From Pseudomonadota bacterium (GTDB taxonomy: Bacteria > Pseudomonadota > Gammaproteobacteria > Acidiferrobacterales > Acidiferrobacteraceae), in assembly GCA_021777335.1 (NCBI GenBank), contig JAJYDT010000005.1, positions 1 through 64,000 on the forward strand: a stretch of 64,000 nucleotides of DNA, in the 5' to 3' direction. Below, piece by piece: positions 1,563 to 11,175 of this stretch (the stretch's first letter is position 1; every line of letters begins with the position of its first letter). Below the pieces are notes generated by a model. That model saw only the letters and a list, made by a program, of their open reading frames with translations. It made no database searches and was not told where the DNA came from. The position numbers and the translations under genes were made by a program.

Positions 1563-2126
1563 ATGGCTTCTATCAGAAAGAACAAGCGCCAGCGCCTTGT
1601 AGAGGCAGCGGACCGGTTGGTGCAACGTCATGGTTTCAACCGCACCACGCTCGCAGATCTGGCCAAAACCTCGCGGGTGGCCCTTGGCAATATCCATTAT
1701 TACTTTCGCACCAAGGACGCACTGGGTGAGGCACTGATTGAGGACCGTGCTGAGAAATATCGCACGTTACGGGACCGCTGGGGCAAGCTACCTGAGCCCA
1801 AAGACAGGCTGATCGCGTTTATTCAAATGATAGCGGACAAGGGTGATATGTTGGCACGGAATGGTTGCCCGATCGGGAGTCTTTGTCAGGAGCTGAGCAA
1901 GGAAGGTGGCAAGTTGGCAAACAGGGCCTCCAACATGTTTACCGAACTTCTGTCGTGGCTCGAAGCACAGTTCCAGGAACTCGGGCAGGGGAAACGATCA
2001 GCAGGCCTATCCATCCACCTCATATCCGCGATCGAGGGAGCGGCATTGCTCACCCACACTTTTCAAACCCCTTCATACATCGTCAACGAAACCGATCGCA
2101 TGAAGGAATGGATCCGTTCGCTTTGA
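1563..2126 (+). CDS. TetR/AcrR family transcriptional regulator
   Basis: The 187-residue protein has the TetR architecture. An N-terminal three-helix DNA-binding unit has its helix-turn-helix at about residues 28-47 (TTLADLAKTSRV then GNIHYYFRTKD). A divergent helical ligand-binding domain follows, with a CPIGSLCQELS segment near residue 100. It should act as a cytoplasmic dimer repressing a nearby or distant target; the ligand is not predictable. The ribosome site in front of the ATG is weak. It converges on a second TetR gene with only 78 bases between them. Family call is firm; target is unknown. Confidence 0.9.
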   Translation: MASIRKNKRQRLVEAADRLVQRHGFNRTTLADLAKTSRVALGNIHYYFRTKDALGEALIEDRAEKYRTLRDRWGKLPEPKDRLIAFIQMIADKGDMLARNGCPIGSLCQELSKEGGKLANRASNMFTELLSWLEAQFQELGQGKRSAGLSIHLISAIEGAALLTHTFQTPSYIVNETDRMKEWIRSL

Positions 2127-2204: not shown

Positions 2205-2882
2205 TTAGGTTTTTTTCAAGCTGCGGTCCTGGGGCACTTGCAGTCGTGACGCGCCAATCTCCGAAAAACGCTTGCCGCCTTCTCCCGTGACGCCCACCGA
2301 TCTAAGAAATTGATCAACTACAGTGCGGACGAGATAGCTTTGGTCGATCTCGCGATAGCGCTCGGTATTAAGGATGACGCGGTTGTAGATGAGTTCGCGC
2401 AACATCCCCTGGAACATCAGGGCCGCAAGACCGGTATCTACGGCCTCAATCTCGCCAGCCTCCATCAGTTCCCTGAGTGAATACTCGATATAGTCAGAAA
2501 AGTTCTTCCAGTGATTGAGCAAAAACATCGGGCAGATTGCGGCCCCGTCGAGCGCACTCCGAAGCTCCATGCGCAAAGTATCGGGATCTTCGAGGGTATT
2601 GCGCACATACACCAAGGTCATTCGGTAGAGCACGCTCCCGAAATCAGAGGGCCCAGAGAGCACCGCTTCGACGAAATCCGCACGGCGCTCGGCGGCCTCG
2701 GTAAGCACGGCGTCGTAAAGCGCCTCCTTCGAGGCAAAGTGCTGGTACAAAACCGCCGCACTTACACTGCAAGCAGTTGCCAGTTCGTCGATGGACACAG
2801 CGTTTCCCTTCTGCGCAAACAGGCCACGCGCGACGGACAGAATCTGCGCCTTGCGATCACCCGCCTTTAATCGTTTCTTCAA
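2205..2882 (-). CDS. TetR/AcrR family transcriptional regulator
   Basis: The 225-residue TetR-type regulator has its helix-turn-helix at residues 29-49 (VSIDELATACSVSAAVLYQHFASKE), a typical HFxSKE end of the recognition unit. The C-terminal domain is helical with no recognisable ligand motif. The start is a TTG with GGAGG about 5 bases upstream; no ATG in this frame fits better. It reads away from the nitroreductase operon that starts 680 bases further on, and the operator-like half-sites there make it a candidate repressor of that operon. This link is inference. Confidence 0.85.
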   Translation of the reverse strand: MKKRLKAGDRKAQILSVARGLFAQKGNAVSIDELATACSVSAAVLYQHFASKEALYDAVLTEAAERRADFVEAVLSGPSDFGSVLYRMTLVYVRNTLEDPDTLRMELRSALDGAAICPMFLLNHWKNFSDYIEYSLRELMEAGEIEAVDTGLAALMFQGMLRELIYNRVILNTERYREIDQSYLVRTVVDQFLRSVGVTGEGGKRFSEIGASRLQVPQDRSLKKT

Positions 2883-3411
2883 CTGCTCCTCCAGGCTTAG
2901 CCAACCAGCCCACAGATCGCTTTGTACTGGGTTCCCGTTTCGCTGAGACCGGTTTCCTCTTGGGCTTGCGCCGAAAACTGGAACCTTTTGTGATAATTCA
3001 TCGCCAAGCCAGGATCAACAATGACTGCGCGCGCCCATCCCTGCCTGATGCAACAGCGTTCAAGCACCCGCTCCCGGCATTCCAGATCGGGGCACCGTGT
3101 GGGTGTGGCGCGACCTGCGGGCGCAGGCGACCACCTCGCAACGCGGCATCTGCGTCCCGGAACATCTCCGGGCGTACTTTTGCCAGCTCATTGCGTCGAT
3201 AACCAACCGCGCGAATATTCAGCGGCCCGCTTGCCGTCGGCCTCCCGGCGCCGCAACGTCGTGATGGAAGCGCAGAACACCTTCACGGTTTCAGCTACCC
3301 CTGTCTATCTGTCCATGTCGGATGACGTAAGTTTATGGTGCAAAACAGTCTGCTCAAACACCATTTTTTCCTGATTAAACGAAAAGTCTTCGCGGTGTCA
3401 CACCTCTAAAT
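2883..3411. other. Intergenic region with possible degenerate coding remnants
   Basis: No intact gene is visible. On the minus strand one frame (about 3200-3010) reads NELAKVRPEMFRDADAAL, then GRLRPQV, then LASGR-like text, faintly like the C-terminus of an NAD(P)H:quinone oxidoreductase or alcohol dehydrogenase. Another short minus-strand ORF of 34 codons ends 18 bases before the TetR start. Neither is solid. The segment is GC rich until about 3400 and then turns strongly AT rich. Confidence 0.35.
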
Positions 3412-3413
3412 AG

Positions 3414-3430
3414 ATCGATCGTTCACGATA
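3414..3430. promoter_or_regulatory. Operator-like site, distal copy (ATCGATCGTTCACGAT)
   Basis: The word ATCGTTCAC (3418-3426) sits in a partly palindromic ATCG...CGAT context. The same 9-base word occurs again at 3529-3537, just behind the -10 box of the nitroreductase promoter. Paired copies around a promoter suggest binding sites for one regulator, most simply one of the two nearby TetR proteins. Confidence 0.4.
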
Positions 3431-3495
3431 TTAAATTCCGCGTATTTTACATTTTATTATTATATATCAGTAGACTATAAAACTACACCCAGCCG

Positions 3496-3547
3496 TTGAC
3501 ACCGTACGTTTCCCGCATTATATAATATATCGTTCACTTATATAACG
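3496..3547 (+). promoter_or_regulatory. Strong promoter plus proximal operator-like site for the nitroreductase operon
   Basis: TTGACA (3496-3501) is followed after 17 bases by TATATA (3519-3524), with TATAAT at 3521-3526. Directly downstream lies ATCGTTCAC (3529-3537) inside CGTT-N9-AACG (3531-3547), an inverted repeat overlapping the expected transcription start. This placement is typical of a repressor site. The ATG at 3562 follows with AGGAGG. Confidence 0.55.
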
Positions 3548-3561
3548 TGCCAGGAGGCGCC

Positions 3562-4239
3562 ATGAAGAACAAACCACGGAACATAGAGCCGCCCGAATCC
3601 CCAATCATCATCAGTCTCGAGCAGGCTATCCGTGAGCGCCGCTCGGTCCATTATTTCAAGCGCGGCAGCCGCATCGCGCGCGCGCAGTGGCGCACCCTCT
3701 TCGAGCTCACCAGCCTCAGCCCATCAAGCTTCAATTTCCAGCCTTGGGATTTTGTCATCATCGAGGACGAGGCCCGAAAACGCGCGCTGCGTCCATTGTG
3801 CATGAACCAGCAGCAGATTCTCGATGCGGCAGCCATCATCGGCGTGATCGGCGACAAAAACCCGCACCGGCGCGACCGTGCGATACTCCAGCAGTTCGTC
3901 AACAACGGCTATTTCGATACAGGCGTGAGAGACGCCTACCTCGGCGCCGTGGACATGCTCTATCCGGACGAGGGACGGCGCATCGAACACGCGGTGGGGG
4001 GAGCCTCACTCGCGGCCATGACCCTGATGCTCGCTGCTCAGGGTATGGGATTGGCCACCGCCCCGCTCATTGGGTTCGACGTCCGGGCCGTTACCGCCTT
4101 TCTCGGCGTGCCACGTGACTATCTCGTGGTGATGCTGATCGCAATCGGCCACTCCGCCCTTCACGAACTGCCTCGGCAACAGCGTCGTCCGTTCCAGGAG
4201 ATTGTTCACCAGGAGCATTTTGGCCATGCCCCGGAGTGA
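3562..4239 (+). CDS. Nitroreductase family protein
   Basis: The 225-residue protein has nitroreductase-fold motifs: RRSVHYF at residues 26-32 (phosphate of FMN), SPSSFNFQPW at 53-62 (FMN ring and dimer contact), and a C-terminal AAQGMGLATAPLIGFD segment with a following LVVMLIAIGH strand. It should bind FMN and reduce nitro, quinone or flavin substrates with NAD(P)H; the true substrate is not predictable. The start at ATG 3562 has AGGAGG 4 bases upstream, so an upstream in-frame GTG at 3547 is rejected. The next gene overlaps its end by 14 bases, showing coupling. A repressor-controlled promoter is likely. Confidence 0.88.
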   Translation: MKNKPRNIEPPESPIIISLEQAIRERRSVHYFKRGSRIARAQWRTLFELTSLSPSSFNFQPWDFVIIEDEARKRALRPLCMNQQQILDAAAIIGVIGDKNPHRRDRAILQQFVNNGYFDTGVRDAYLGAVDMLYPDEGRRIEHAVGGASLAAMTLMLAAQGMGLATAPLIGFDVRAVTAFLGVPRDYLVVMLIAIGHSALHELPRQQRRPFQEIVHQEHFGHAPE

Positions 4240-5590
4240 AGCACCGAGGCATGTCTCGCCCCTCGGTCCGATCCTGAACGAGCGGCTGAGCGGGTACCCC
4301 GAACGGATATTTGCCGGTGATTATGAGGTGGTTGGACCGTGTCCGTGGCTTGGACAGAGGGAAGTCCGCTCGCTCGGAACTAATCTTGTATTACTCCACT
4401 ACCACCATAGGCATGAGTTTGCGGGAGGGCACCCGCAGGGGCTCTGGGGTAATGTTCAGGAAGCCCCGGGGCGTTACTCTTGGTCCGAGGTGGATCGCCT
4501 GGTTGACGAAACCGCACGCCGGTTTCCGATGGTGGGCCTCTACCCAGTGGGATGGGCTCACATGGTGCCGAAATTTCTTGGGCACACCATCCTCGAGATC
4601 CCCCCGGACGTCATCGCGGAATGGGTCGCGACCGTGGTGGAGCGCTATCAGGAGACCATCGCGGTGTTTCCGATCTTCTATGAGATGAACGTATTCGACC
4701 TCTTCTACCGCGCGACGGACGCCCGTCATTACGCCACCGCCGAGAAGATGCGGATCGTTGACATTCTGTGGCGCTGTCATGATGCCGTGTGTGCCCGCAG
4801 CGGCGAGAAGGTCGCAAGCCGCCTTACGGCCGGCACCTTTGTGGAACTGACCCACAGCAGTTTCTACTGGATGAGCGAGGGCAAGCTGCTCGAGCTTCCG
4901 CAAGGATCGGCACTCACCGAGGCAGCCCTCTCACCGCCTGATCTCCTGCGCACGGCACGAGCACTTGATGTCGCGCGGAGCGATGGTCATGTGGAGCGCG
5001 CGATCCGCCAGTTGCTGCACCAGGTGATCTTCTGGAATGCGGACGACAGTGGTGCGGACAATACCCTCGGCGACGATCTGAAACGACTCGTCTCTGATGG
5101 CTGGGTCTATGATCGGACGCTCAACCCGGAAGGCTTCGTGCATGTGCTGTTGCCGGGATGGGACGCACAGCCGCAGAACACCTATCAATACCTGTCGGCG
5201 CGGATCGCGCCTGAGCGTTACGTGGAGAGCGCCGCCGAATGTCTGCAGCGCCACTATGAAAGCCTCGAACGTTTCCTGAGCAACCCTTCCGTTCCCAAGG
5301 CCTACCGGGATCGCATCGTCGGATTCGTTCTCGACGATGTATTCAAATGCCAAAAGCAGAGCGGCATTACCTCGGCCGTGTATCCTGAGGAGACTATCGA
5401 CGCACAGACCGGCCAGCGCCACGCCGCGGAACCGGTCCACATCAGCACCCTCGGCACGGCCTATCACGAGATCATACGAAACTTCCGGGCCCGGAGCACC
5501 GCCGCCGGTCATGACCCGTTTCCGGTAGACACGTCAGCGCACACCCGGACACAGGATTTGCCCTGCCCCCGCAGGTCAGCCCCTATCTGA
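4226..5590 (+). CDS. Unrecognised 454-residue protein coupled to a nitroreductase
   Basis: I do not recognise the family. The protein is soluble, with no signal peptide or membrane segment. The N-terminal half has a repetitive strand-helix rhythm, with LWGNVQEAPGRYSWSEVDRL at about residues 73-92 and FPIFYEMNVFDLFY at 148-161. This rhythm and the acidic residue E153 faintly recall TIM-barrel glycosidases, but I would not assign an activity. The C-terminal part is helical (RYVESAAECLQRHYESLERF) with a DD pair near 380. The ATG at 4226 has AGGAG 10 bases upstream and overlaps the nitroreductase gene by 14 bases. The last 15 bases overlap the convergent paiB-like gene. Confidence 0.7.
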   Translation: MPRSEAPRHVSPLGPILNERLSGYPERIFAGDYEVVGPCPWLGQREVRSLGTNLVLLHYHHRHEFAGGHPQGLWGNVQEAPGRYSWSEVDRLVDETARRFPMVGLYPVGWAHMVPKFLGHTILEIPPDVIAEWVATVVERYQETIAVFPIFYEMNVFDLFYRATDARHYATAEKMRIVDILWRCHDAVCARSGEKVASRLTAGTFVELTHSSFYWMSEGKLLELPQGSALTEAALSPPDLLRTARALDVARSDGHVERAIRQLLHQVIFWNADDSGADNTLGDDLKRLVSDGWVYDRTLNPEGFVHVLLPGWDAQPQNTYQYLSARIAPERYVESAAECLQRHYESLERFLSNPSVPKAYRDRIVGFVLDDVFKCQKQSGITSAVYPEETIDAQTGQRHAAEPVHISTLGTAYHEIIRNFRARSTAAGHDPFPVDTSAHTRTQDLPCPRRSAPI

Positions 5591-6205
5591 TTCCTCGCGC
5601 ACGCGGTCCATGAATTCCGCAAGCTCCATCGCCGAGCCGCGACCCGACCCGCGCAGGACCGTAGCCACGCGCACGCGATCGACCCAAGGGCGATTCTGGC
5701 TCAATTTGAATCTCCCTTCCACGCAATCGGCCACAATGGCGAAACCGACAATATGAGGCAACAATCCTTCAAAATGTTCGACAAGGCTGGCCGGGGATGA
5801 GCACGCGCCCGCCTCAGCCTCAAATCGGGAGGTCAACCGCTCAAGCAATCCGCGCAGCTCGTGCGGGTCATCAATCATGCGGACACGGCCCTTAAGGTGC
5901 ACCGCGACATAGTTCCAGGTCGGTACCCCTGGACTCTCATACCAGGATGGCGAGATGTAGCCGTCCGGGCCGGGAAACACGGCAAGCACCTGCCCGCCGG
6001 ATTGAAGCGCGGCGCATTGCGGGTTTGCGCGCGCAAGATGCCCGAGGACAACGAATGACCCGCGATCCCGCTCCACCAGCATCGGCACATGGCTTACAAA
6101 TGGCTCGCCCGAAACATGCGAGATAAGCAGACCAAATGGATACCGCGCAACGACCTCCATCAGGCGGTCGGGGCGCTCTTCGCGGAAAAGTGGCAGTGTA
6201 GACAT
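5576..6205 (-). CDS. PaiB-like FMN-binding protein
   Basis: The 209-residue protein matches the PaiB / FMN-binding negative transcriptional regulator family. It starts with PLFREERPDRLMEVVARYPF, contains SHVPMLVER and HLARANPQ, then GYISPSWYESPGVPTWNYVAVH, and near the end FKLSQNRPW. This is a flavin-reductase-like split barrel. In Bacillus PaiB represses sporulation and protease genes; in proteobacteria the role is mostly unknown and FMN binding or heme-related roles are possible. It converges on the preceding operon with a 15-base overlap of the 3' ends. Family call firm, function unclear. Confidence 0.85.
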   Translation of the reverse strand: MSTLPLFREERPDRLMEVVARYPFGLLISHVSGEPFVSHVPMLVERDRGSFVVLGHLARANPQCAALQSGGQVLAVFPGPDGYISPSWYESPGVPTWNYVAVHLKGRVRMIDDPHELRGLLERLTSRFEAEAGACSSPASLVEHFEGLLPHIVGFAIVADCVEGRFKLSQNRPWVDRVRVATVLRGSGRGSAMELAEFMDRVREESDRG

Positions 6206-6334
6206 ACGCGCTCCTCAACTGTTCTTAAAAACGAGTGATCACAACGATTTTCACGACCACCGGGCGGCATACTTGCATCAATCGAGCCTGCTTTGTACGC
6301 TACATGAAGCACATAATGATAAAGAGGGGTGACG

Positions 6335-6532
6335 ATGGCCACAATGGGAACCTCGCGCAAGCAGCTGTGGTATTGGCTCTTGCTCGTTATTTATGTGTTC
6401 ATCCTGTGGGTCCCATTCTACAACCGCCTGCAACCCACCCTTGCCGGCATCCCGTTCTTTTTCTGGTATCAATTTCTTTGGGTCATCATCAGCGCCATCT
6501 TGACAGCAATCGTCTACAAGGCAACGGAATAG
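6335..6532 (+). CDS. DUF3311 small membrane protein, partner of the symporter
   Basis: This 65-residue protein has two hydrophobic segments (WYWLLLVIYVFILWV and FFFWYQFLWVIISAILTAIVY) joined by a short loop with PFYNRLQPTLAGIPFF, the hallmark of DUF3311. Such proteins are encoded directly before SSS-family monocarboxylate permeases of the MctP type and are presumed small subunits. GAGGGG lies 5 bases before the ATG at 6335. The gene is 53 bases upstream of the symporter gene on the same strand. Confidence 0.85.
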   Translation: MATMGTSRKQLWYWLLLVIYVFILWVPFYNRLQPTLAGIPFFFWYQFLWVIISAILTAIVYKATE

Positions 6533-6585
6533 TCCTGTACTGCAGGCGTGGCTCATAAAACAACGTTCAAAGCGCCGAGGGAACA

Positions 6586-8124
6586 ATGAACTGGGTCGCC
6601 CTCACGGTCTTCGTCGTGTTATTCGCCGCAGTCACGGTACTCGGGTTCATCGCGGCACGCTGGCGCAAAGGCGATCTCGGTCTATTGCAGGAATGGGGCC
6701 TCGGTGGCCGCCGGTTTGGCACCATCGTCACCTGGTTCCTCCTCGGCGGCGACCTCTATACCGCCTATACCTTCATTGCCGTGCCGGCGCTCGTTTTCGG
6801 GGCCGGTGCCATCGGTTTCTTCGGAATCCCTTATACCGTGATGGTTTATCCCTTTGTGCTGATCGTATTCCCGAGACTCTGGTCAGTCTCGCGCACACAT
6901 GGTTATGTCACCGCCGCGGACTTCGTGTCGGGCCGCTATGACAGCAACGGGCTCGCACTCGCTATTGCCTTTACGGGCCTGCTCGCCACCATGCCATATA
7001 TCGCGCTGCAACTGGCCGGTATCCAGGTGGTGATCGCGGCGATGGGTGTACGCGGGGACCTGCCTCTCGTTATCGCGTTCGCGATCCTTGCGGCGTACAC
7101 GTATACGAGCGGACTGCGCGCGCCAGCCCTGATCGCCGTGGTCAAGGACCTGATGATTTACATCACCGTGATTGCGGCCGCAATTGTCATCCCGGAACAG
7201 CTCGGAGGCTACGCCCATATCTTTGCAAGCATCCCGGCGGATAAGCTCGTGCTCGCGCGTCCAGGATCCGGAACAACCGGCGCCTACAGCGCGTATGGGA
7301 CGCTTGCATTGGGGTCGGCACTCGCGCTGTTTCTCTATCCACATGCAATCACAGGCGTCTTGAGCGCCAATAACCGCAGCGTCGTGCGGCGGAACACCGC
7401 AATATTGCCGGCCTACTCCCTGCTCCTCGGGATCATCGCGCTGCTCGGTTACATGGCCGTCGTGGCCGGGGTCTCAAAAATGCCGCAGTTCGCCTCCGAC
7501 TTCAAACACTACGGCCCGAATTTCGCCGTTCCGGCACTCTTTCTGAAGTCATTCCCCGCATGGTTCGCGGGTTTCGCGTTCGCCGCTATCGCAATCGGCG
7601 CGCTGGTACCGGCAGCGATCATGTCAATCGCAGCCGCGAGCCTCTATACGCGCAATATCCACCGGCCGTTCATTCGTCCCCGGTGCACGGATCGCGAGGA
7701 GACCGCTATCGCCAAGATCGTGTCCCTGGTCGTCAAGCTCGGCGCGCTCGCATTTATCGTCCTGCTGCCGCTCAAGTATATGATCCAGCTGCAGTTGCTC
7801 GGCGGAATCTGGATCCTTCAGACGCTCCCGGCAGTGATTCTCGGGCTGTATACCCGGCGTCTGCACCGCTGGGCATTGCTGGCCGGCTGGGCCACCGGCA
7901 TGGTAACCGGTACCCTCATGACCGCCTCGCTGCATTTCGCGACGACGATCTATCCGCTGCACGTGGGCGGGATGGTAATCCCGGCATACGCGGCGCTCTA
8001 TGCGCTGGTCCTGAATCTCGTAGTGTCCGGTGTCTTAAGCGTGGTTTTTCACACAGCAGGCATATCCGCAGGAAGCGACCAGACGGCACATAGTGATTAT
8101 CTTCAGCGCGGCGGTGTGGACTGA
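6586..8124 (+). CDS. mctP: Sodium:solute symporter, MctP-like monocarboxylate permease
   Basis: The 512-residue inner-membrane protein has about 13 hydrophobic segments and SSS-family features: LQEWGLGGRRFGTIVTWFLLGGDLYTAYTF near the N-terminus and GALVPAAIMSIAAASLYTRNI near residue 350. Together with the upstream DUF3311 gene this matches MctP-type permeases that take up lactate, pyruvate, acetate or similar acids with sodium or proton. Substrate cannot be read from sequence. GAGGG precedes the ATG. It converges on nuoN with about 110 bases between. Confidence 0.85.
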   Translation: MNWVALTVFVVLFAAVTVLGFIAARWRKGDLGLLQEWGLGGRRFGTIVTWFLLGGDLYTAYTFIAVPALVFGAGAIGFFGIPYTVMVYPFVLIVFPRLWSVSRTHGYVTAADFVSGRYDSNGLALAIAFTGLLATMPYIALQLAGIQVVIAAMGVRGDLPLVIAFAILAAYTYTSGLRAPALIAVVKDLMIYITVIAAAIVIPEQLGGYAHIFASIPADKLVLARPGSGTTGAYSAYGTLALGSALALFLYPHAITGVLSANNRSVVRRNTAILPAYSLLLGIIALLGYMAVVAGVSKMPQFASDFKHYGPNFAVPALFLKSFPAWFAGFAFAAIAIGALVPAAIMSIAAASLYTRNIHRPFIRPRCTDREETAIAKIVSLVVKLGALAFIVLLPLKYMIQLQLLGGIWILQTLPAVILGLYTRRLHRWALLAGWATGMVTGTLMTASLHFATTIYPLHVGGMVIPAYAALYALVLNLVVSGVLSVVFHTAGISAGSDQTAHSDYLQRGGVD

Positions 8125-9687: not shown

Positions 9688-11175
9688 TTAACCAAGTTTG
9701 CTCGCTGCGGCCTGCCTGACCAGATGTGCTACGGACTGATGCATGACATGGAGCAATGGACGCGGCCAGACACCGATCCCGAGCACCGCCACCGCCAGCA
9801 AGCCCAGCACCAGGCCTTCACGCAGCGTGATGTCCTTGAGTGCCTGAACCTTCGGGCTCGACGCGGTTCCGAAGATAACCCGCTTGTACATCCAGAGCGT
9901 ATAGGCCGCGCCCGTGATCAGGCTCGTAGCGGCGATAATCCCATACCAGGCGTTCGCCTTGAAAGCGCCCAGGATCACCAGGAATTCGCCGACAAATCCG
10001 GACGTGCCCGGCAACGCGGCGTTTGCCATCGCAAACAGCATCATGAACGCCGCGAATACCGGCATGCGACTCGCCACGCCCCCATAATCACTGATCTGCC
10101 GCGAGTGGAGACGATCGTACAGGACCCCGACACACAGAAACAGGGCACCTGAGACAAAACCGTGGGAGACCATCTGGGTAATCGCACCTTCCGCGCCGAG
10201 ACGACTGAATATGAACACACCAAGCGTCACGAATCCCATGTGGGCAATGGACGAATAGGCAATCAGCTTTTTCATGTCGTCCTGCACAAGTGCGACAAAC
10301 CCAATGTAGACAATCGCGATCAGCGACAGCGCAATCATGAGGCCTGAAAGCTCACGGCTTGCATCCGGCAGGATGGGCAACGAAAAGCGAAGAAACCCGT
10401 AGCCACCCATCTTCAGCATGATCGCCGCAAGCACGACCGAGCCACCCGTGGGCGCCTCCACATGAGCATCCGGAAGCCACGTATGTACGGGCCACATGGG
10501 GATCTTTACCGCAAATGCGAGCAGGAACGCGATAAACAGGAGAACCTGCTCTCTCATTCCTATCTTGAGCGAATACAGTGCCGAAATCTCGAACGTATGC
10601 GCCTGGAAATACAGATAGAGCAGCGCAACCAGCATCAAGACGGACCCGAGGAACGTGTACAGAAAAAACTTGATGGTTGCGTAGATCCGGTTGGGGCCAC
10701 CCCAGATGCCGATGATAAGGAACATCGGGATCAGCATCGCCTCCCAGAACACATAGAACAGGATGGCGTCCAGCGACGAGAATACACCAATCATCAGACC
10801 TTCCATGATCAGGAAGGCACCGAAGTATTGCGCGACGCGCCGCTGGATGACGCGCCATCCGGCAAGCACGACGAGCATGCCCGTGAAACTCGTCAACAGG
10901 ATCAGCGGCAGCGATATACCGTCAATCCCGAGGTGATAGTGGATGTTGAACGACGGTATCCACCGATAGCGCTCGACGAACTGCATCGCTGCAGTGCCCG
11001 CGTCGAATCCGATATAGAGCGGCAGGGTGAGCAGAAACGTGGCCACCGAGAATGCAAGGGCAAGCACGCGCGCTAACTGCGCCCGGTCATCGTTTCCGGC
11101 CATCAGGATGCCAACCCCGCCAGCGATCGGAATCCATATACACAGGCTCAGGATATGCGGAATCATCGTGCGCAC
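9688..11175 (-). CDS. nuoM: NADH-quinone oxidoreductase subunit M
   Basis: The 495-residue antiporter-like complex I subunit contains FYVFWEAMLIPMFLIIGIWGG, AVKIPMWPVHTWLPDAHVEAPT and KLIAYSSIAHMGFVTLG, all diagnostic of NuoM. It pumps protons in the membrane arm. The open frame begins with a GTG directly after the nuoL stop; an ATG three codons later (11166) is an equally good start. Translation is evidently coupled to nuoL. Confidence 0.97.
   Translation of the reverse strand: MRTMIPHILSLCIWIPIAGGVGILMAGNDDRAQLARVLALAFSVATFLLTLPLYIGFDAGTAAMQFVERYRWIPSFNIHYHLGIDGISLPLILLTSFTGMLVVLAGWRVIQRRVAQYFGAFLIMEGLMIGVFSSLDAILFYVFWEAMLIPMFLIIGIWGGPNRIYATIKFFLYTFLGSVLMLVALLYLYFQAHTFEISALYSLKIGMREQVLLFIAFLLAFAVKIPMWPVHTWLPDAHVEAPTGGSVVLAAIMLKMGGYGFLRFSLPILPDASRELSGLMIALSLIAIVYIGFVALVQDDMKKLIAYSSIAHMGFVTLGVFIFSRLGAEGAITQMVSHGFVSGALFLCVGVLYDRLHSRQISDYGGVASRMPVFAAFMMLFAMANAALPGTSGFVGEFLVILGAFKANAWYGIIAATSLITGAAYTLWMYKRVIFGTASSPKVQALKDITLREGLVLGLLAVAVLGIGVWPRPLLHVMHQSVAHLVRQAAASKLG

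Follow-up and report, generated by a model that had tools for sequence, protein, structure and literature searches.

What does a protein without a curated family do when it is encoded directly behind a flavin enzyme? The question is raised by the 64,000-nucleotide stretch of an Acidiferrobacteraceae genome analysed here (the window), in which a nitroreductase gene is followed by a gene for a protein termed GHL, for glycosidase-like barrel protein. The barrel gene (4226..5590, + strand) runs from an ATG through 454 codons plus a stop. An AGGAG ribosome-binding site, read from the sequence, lies at 4211..4215 (+), 10 bases before the ATG, and alternative in-frame TTG starts are present at 4202 and 4220. 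As the first-pass annotation had described, the gene overlaps the nitroreductase by 14 bases (start at 4226, nitroreductase stop ending at 4239) and has a ribosome site of its own; the two motifs quoted there, LWGNVQEAPGRYSW and FYEMNVFDLFY, are both found in the protein. Judged from its conservation, the ORF is a real gene and not a chance reading frame, because there are ten related loci and 146 invariant positions in an eight-sequence alignment. The protein contains no hydrophobic segment, with a maximal 19-residue Kyte-Doolittle mean of 0.98 and a value of 0.29 near the N-terminus. A PF04299 (FMN_bind_2) gene at 5576-6205 (- strand) is convergent to the barrel gene, whose last 15 bases it shares.

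Family searches bore out the earlier statement that the protein has no recognised domain. In the Pfam scan every score fell under its cut-off, and the NCBIfam scan gave no match; nor did the PADLOC anti-phage defence models match any of five proteins scored, the barrel protein among them. The top Pfam score came from the Apiosidase-like family PF13204 (14.8 bits over residues 76-147, cut-off 26.5), which was rejected as the family of the barrel, with a match in only one of eight family members. GH10 (PF00331) was likewise rejected, at 12.0 bits against a cut-off of 22.1 and with a probability of 7.6% in a local-mode hhalign comparison with 20 GH10 proteins; the sequences thus do not establish homology to any named GH family. 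A sequence search of solved structures returned nothing significant, so that across Pfam, NCBIfam and this search there is no high-scoring match to a characterised family. Its best hit was a GH10 xylanase (5mrj, 4xv0) with an E-value of 0.29, or 0.57 with the family profile. This weak match covers residues 73-153 of the barrel protein and ends on the Glu of a V-V-N-E motif, presumably the acid/base of the xylanase, whereas the second half of the barrel protein does not align.

Structure prediction gave a clearer picture. The AlphaFold models of the window's protein (pLDDT 81.1, pTM 0.85) and of its orthologue at locus L007 (pLDDT 83.4, pTM 0.87), which are not independent since their underlying alignments are largely shared, both display an eight-stranded barrel, and the nearest folds found by Foldseek and VIA-align are GH1 beta-glycosidases. 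Against GH1 enzymes, VIA-align gave a Z-score of up to 23.2 for the window's model (rmsd 3.4 Å, 313 aligned residues) and up to 23.7 for L007 (rmsd 3.8 Å, 321 aligned residues), values at which both predicted models have the (beta/alpha)8 barrel of clan GH-A. The barrel fold proposed for the protein is hence borne out in two predicted models; as the structures returned by the fold search are mainly GH1 and GH10 enzymes, the absence of other families among them excludes nothing. In the top-ranking superpositions on the GH1 enzymes 6z1m, 2cet and 1e4i, model residues 24-423 form the same predicted barrel (Z about 23, rmsd about 3.1-3.8 Å), and strand 4 ends in an acidic residue in these enzymes and in the barrel protein alike. 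However, the sequence identity is 6%-14%, the barrel protein has no GH1 Pfam match, and it possesses neither the Asn-Glu pair on strand 4 nor a Glu on strand 7.

The active site of clan GH-A is a two-glutamate site. In the barrel protein, Glu153 comes after strand 147-151 and is matched to the Glu of V-V-N-E in the alignment with the GH10 enzyme, but the preceding residue is Tyr and not Asn. Strand 307-313 and its surroundings (FVHVLLPGWDAQPQN), which becomes strand 7 when DSSP strands are counted without coordinates, contain no Glu in any of the eight sequences, and the strand ends in a Gly-Trp-Asp that is invariant in all eight. By the same strand count, invariant residues are found at the C-terminal ends of strands 1 (Asp32, Tyr33, Glu34), 2 (HYHHRHEF), 3 (Trp110, His112), 4 (Glu153, Asn155), 5 (Glu207), 6 (Asn271, Asp273, Asp274), 7 (Trp312, Asp313) and 8 (Asp370, Asp371). 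In the models, this constellation resembles an active site, though a different one from the two-glutamate site of clan GH-A.

Relatives of the barrel protein are few. A single scan of roughly 85,000 species genomes identified 10 loci in 9 further genomes, all proteobacterial, at 50%-56% identity over the best segment, of which 7 cover most of the length; the scan requires exact short peptides, and distant relatives would be missed. The loci come mostly from metagenome-assembled genomes, and the named records include Candidatus Gallionella acididurans, Thiohalomonas denitrificans, Magnetovibrio, Hydrogenophilales and unclassified beta- and gammaproteobacteria. In one of these genomes the barrel gene is divided between two contigs, with its 3' part at L008 and its 5' part at L010. 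Besides the window's own gene, no family member was counted among 398 sampled genomes of the phylum, one was found with the family profile among 96 relatives, and among 158 genomes of the window's family the barrel occurs in the query genome only. Neither viral contigs (358 pattern matches, none a barrel relative) nor plasmids (tblastn) yielded a relative. A further candidate from the phylum sample, in genome G114, shares 30% identity over 100 residues (E 2.4e-4). It was rejected because, by eye, the ORF resembles a usual glycoside hydrolase and because the family profile missed it. The family is therefore rare by these sequence counts, and its scattered presence in distant groups suggests horizontal transfer. 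At L009, in the Thiohalomonas denitrificans assembly (5977-7740), the similarity to the barrel ends after about residue 256, and the DNA that follows resembles by eye the tail of an IS66-type transposase.

The neighbour that prompted the first-pass annotation is a nitroreductase-family FMN enzyme (3562..4239, + strand; PF00881, 88.7 bits, cut-off 23.5), with an alternative GTG start at 3547 and YdfN (3bem, E 1.5e-25) as its best solved relative. It lies directly upstream of the barrel gene in 6 of 10 genomes (the window, L001, L003, L005, L007 and L009), at spacings from the 14-base overlap to a 35-base gap. At L010 it is nearby, about 1.5 kb off across the tetR gene, and in the three genomes of L002, L004 and L006 it is detached and located elsewhere, with 53% identity. 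The expectation that homologues would sit beside nitroreductases was accordingly confirmed. Detachment in three genomes means that a physical complex of the two proteins is not implied. The proposal of a new enzyme pair holds in part: the pairing is conserved and the family uncatalogued, but both genes belong to a larger set rather than to a two-enzyme unit.

This set, counted by tblastn with seven L007 proteins over the window and the 9 other genomes, comprises in full a TetR regulator, the nitroreductase, the barrel protein, a ThDP enzyme, an aminotransferase, a truncated haemoglobin and, often, an F420-oxidoreductase-like protein. The ThDP enzyme, aminotransferase and globin genes follow directly downstream of the barrel gene in 8 of 10 genomes (L001-L008), with a gap of about 9-19 bases between the first two. 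The F420-oxidoreductase-like gene terminates the set at 6 of these 8 loci and was not found by tblastn at L003 and L005. The window's genome carries the trio, in the same order, on another contig (C131, 36676-39765), and at L009 the truncated barrel gene has none of the remaining set genes behind it. Around the trio on C131 (genome G000, locus L020), an F420-oxidoreductase-like gene at 9823-10307 is split over two frames and looks decayed, and genes resembling panB, panC and panD by eye lie just upstream, at 2949-5027 of the locus.

ThDP enzymes and branched-chain-type aminotransferases are kinds of enzymes that act on keto acids. The L007 aminotransferase exceeds the NCBIfam cut-off for branched-chain aminotransferases (343.6 against 279). 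The ThDP enzyme retains in the alignment the glutamate of HEGGA and the GDG motif, which have a role in enzymes of this class. Its closest solved relatives are BbmA (8x3x, 8xod; E 2e-105), for which no relevant description was found in the open-access literature, and acetolactate synthases, yet it falls under every cut-off among the 25 families listed. Of the 398 phylum genomes, the window's own is the sole one with this ThDP partner at E <= 1e-120. The closest solved relative of the globin is the truncated haemoglobin N, subgroup 2 (TrHbN), of Shewanella benthica (E 6.8e-37); the available text of PMC11904497 gives no gene context for it. A globin search yielded 26 matches outside the window's genome, and 18 neighbourhoods were analysed (L090-L107, two of them short, at 3.4 and 9.6 kb). 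Their truncated haemoglobins are 43%-56% identical to that of the set, and all 18 neighbourhoods are without the rest of it, the sole set-like gene being one ThDP gene of 28% identity; the globin was therefore discarded as a marker of function. None of 10 flanking proteins of 6 loci, 2 of them without any Pfam match, is a carbohydrate enzyme. They include an ABC ATPase at L005, beside genes that resemble cytochrome c maturation genes by eye. No description of the gene set was found in a search of the open-access literature, a scope too narrow to prove novelty.

The set appears to have a common regulator. The window's TetR-family gene (2205..2882, - strand; TetR_N 48.8 bits, cut-off 24; TetR_C_7 24.7 bits, cut-off 22) is the orthologue of the tetR that accompanies the set in other genomes (45% identical to the L007 copy by tblastn), and such a gene adjoins the set in 9 of 10 genomes, L005 being the one where it was not found. 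A second, different TetR-family gene lies near it at 1563-2126 (+ strand; TetR_N 42.0 bits). Upstream of the set at L001, L003, L007 and L010 is an 18-bp palindrome close to AGTGAAYGTTYRTTCACT. A weight matrix built from five of these sites placed the palindrome as the top-scoring site of the whole locus at all seven held-out loci. As these loci belong to only 4 genomes, two of which closely resemble each other here, they are not seven independent cases. Only 0-12 of 500 dinucleotide shuffles matched the best site (L002, 0; L004, 8; L006, 12; L009, 5; L027, L028 and L029, 0 each). Three of these seven loci are promoters of detached nitroreductase genes, which makes the palindrome there the clearest sign of a shared regulon. 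L005, without the adjoining tetR, has no such site, as 433 of 500 shuffles reach its best score.

In the window itself the candidate operators, both unstranded, are weak. One lies at 3410..3427 in the divergent tetR-nitroreductase spacer (matrix score 9.8, second best in the 64-kb window; reached by 21 of 500 spacer shuffles), and the other at 3521..3538 just upstream of the nitroreductase (score 8.0), where TCGTTCACTTATA is identical by eye to the right half of the L003 site. With 21 of 500 shuffles reaching the best site on contig C87 and 16 of 500 on C131, common control of the two separated parts of the set in this genome is only suggested. The exact operator core TGAACGTTCA was abandoned in favour of the 18-bp matrix: its one single-mismatch match in the window lies away from the set and is expected by chance, and L020 contains three two-mismatch matches, fewer than expected. 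From the sites as a whole we infer that the palindrome is bound by TetR and that the set genes are induced together.

These observations enable us to propose a putative model, to which we assign a probability of about 0.6: the barrel protein is a cytosolic enzyme with the fold of GH clan A, from an uncatalogued family, and performs one step of a TetR-controlled small-molecule pathway together with its set partners. The set as a whole probably makes or handles a small molecule, a reading favoured over sugar breakdown because the flanking genes examined include no carbohydrate enzyme. TetR would bind the palindrome, and the genes would be switched on together. In chemistry that we draw from knowledge of the families, a ThDP-dependent carboligase or decarboxylase and the transaminase would build or remodel a keto-acid-derived compound, and the nitroreductase would carry out a flavin redox step. 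The barrel enzyme may use Glu153 as acid/base together with the invariant acids Glu207, Asp273/Asp274, Asp313 and Asp370/Asp371 to cleave, transfer or rearrange a bond, a step that is not necessarily classical two-glutamate retaining hydrolysis. The globin may deal with O2 or NO.

Parts of the evidence could be read otherwise. An ordinary cytosolic retaining beta-glycosidase of divergent GH1/GH10 type, which would deglycosylate an intermediate or storage form made by the set and use Asp313 or another acid instead of the usual nucleophile, is a less likely candidate: GH1 enzymes are the closest folds, and the first half of the protein aligns with GH10 over the W..G..W..D stretch, placing Glu153 on the xylanase Glu. 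Against this count the Glu-free strand taken as beta-7, with its Gly-Trp-Asp end in all eight sequences, the Tyr in place of the Asn of the Asn-Glu pair, and the genes scanned, among which there is no glycosyltransferase, sugar kinase or carbohydrate enzyme. It is highly improbable that the barrel is instead a pseudoenzyme, serving as a scaffold for the flavin enzyme or as a ligand-binding protein. Klotho domains, which are non-catalytic, share the fold (Z about 22), and one canonical catalytic Glu is absent here; however, most of the barrel strands bear clustered invariant polar residues at their C-terminal ends, as in active enzymes, and a scaffold for the nitroreductase fits poorly with its detachment in 3 of 10 genomes.

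The combination of a nitroreductase and a truncated haemoglobin under a TetR regulator would also suit a module for detoxification or stress, acting for example on nitrogen oxides, cyanide or electrophiles, rather than biosynthesis. Its globin is nearest to the S. benthica protein, which, according to the available text of PMC11904497, binds cyanide and reacts with peroxide. Nevertheless, we judge such a module unlikely: a ThDP enzyme and a branched-chain-type aminotransferase would be unusual detoxification parts, and the 18 globin neighbourhoods without the set argue that its role is not defined by the globin. A cyanide pathway in particular was set aside; it started from a supposed connection of cyanide metabolism with the S. 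benthica globin, for which no paper was found in the open-access literature, and in the available text of PMC11904497 cyanide figures as a haem ligand.

The small-molecule pathway that we prefer can be cast in a bolder and more tentative form. It would be a TetR-controlled pathway of five or six enzymes that makes a metabolite and is rare and patchy in its distribution among proteobacteria, several of which belong by name to iron- or sulphur-oxidising groups; in this pathway a glycosidase-fold barrel would have turned to a non-hydrolytic reaction, with a new active site made of the HYHHRHE loop after strand 2, Glu153, Glu207, Asp273/Asp274, Asp313 and Asp370/Asp371. The set also provides one context for a truncated haemoglobin whose subgroup, according to the available text of PMC11904497, has been little studied. 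Its other members have recognisable chemistry, so that the product could be tested directly through expression of about six genes. If the proposed model holds, a very well studied enzyme fold would gain an uncatalogued branch, one linked to a compact and regulated set of genes.
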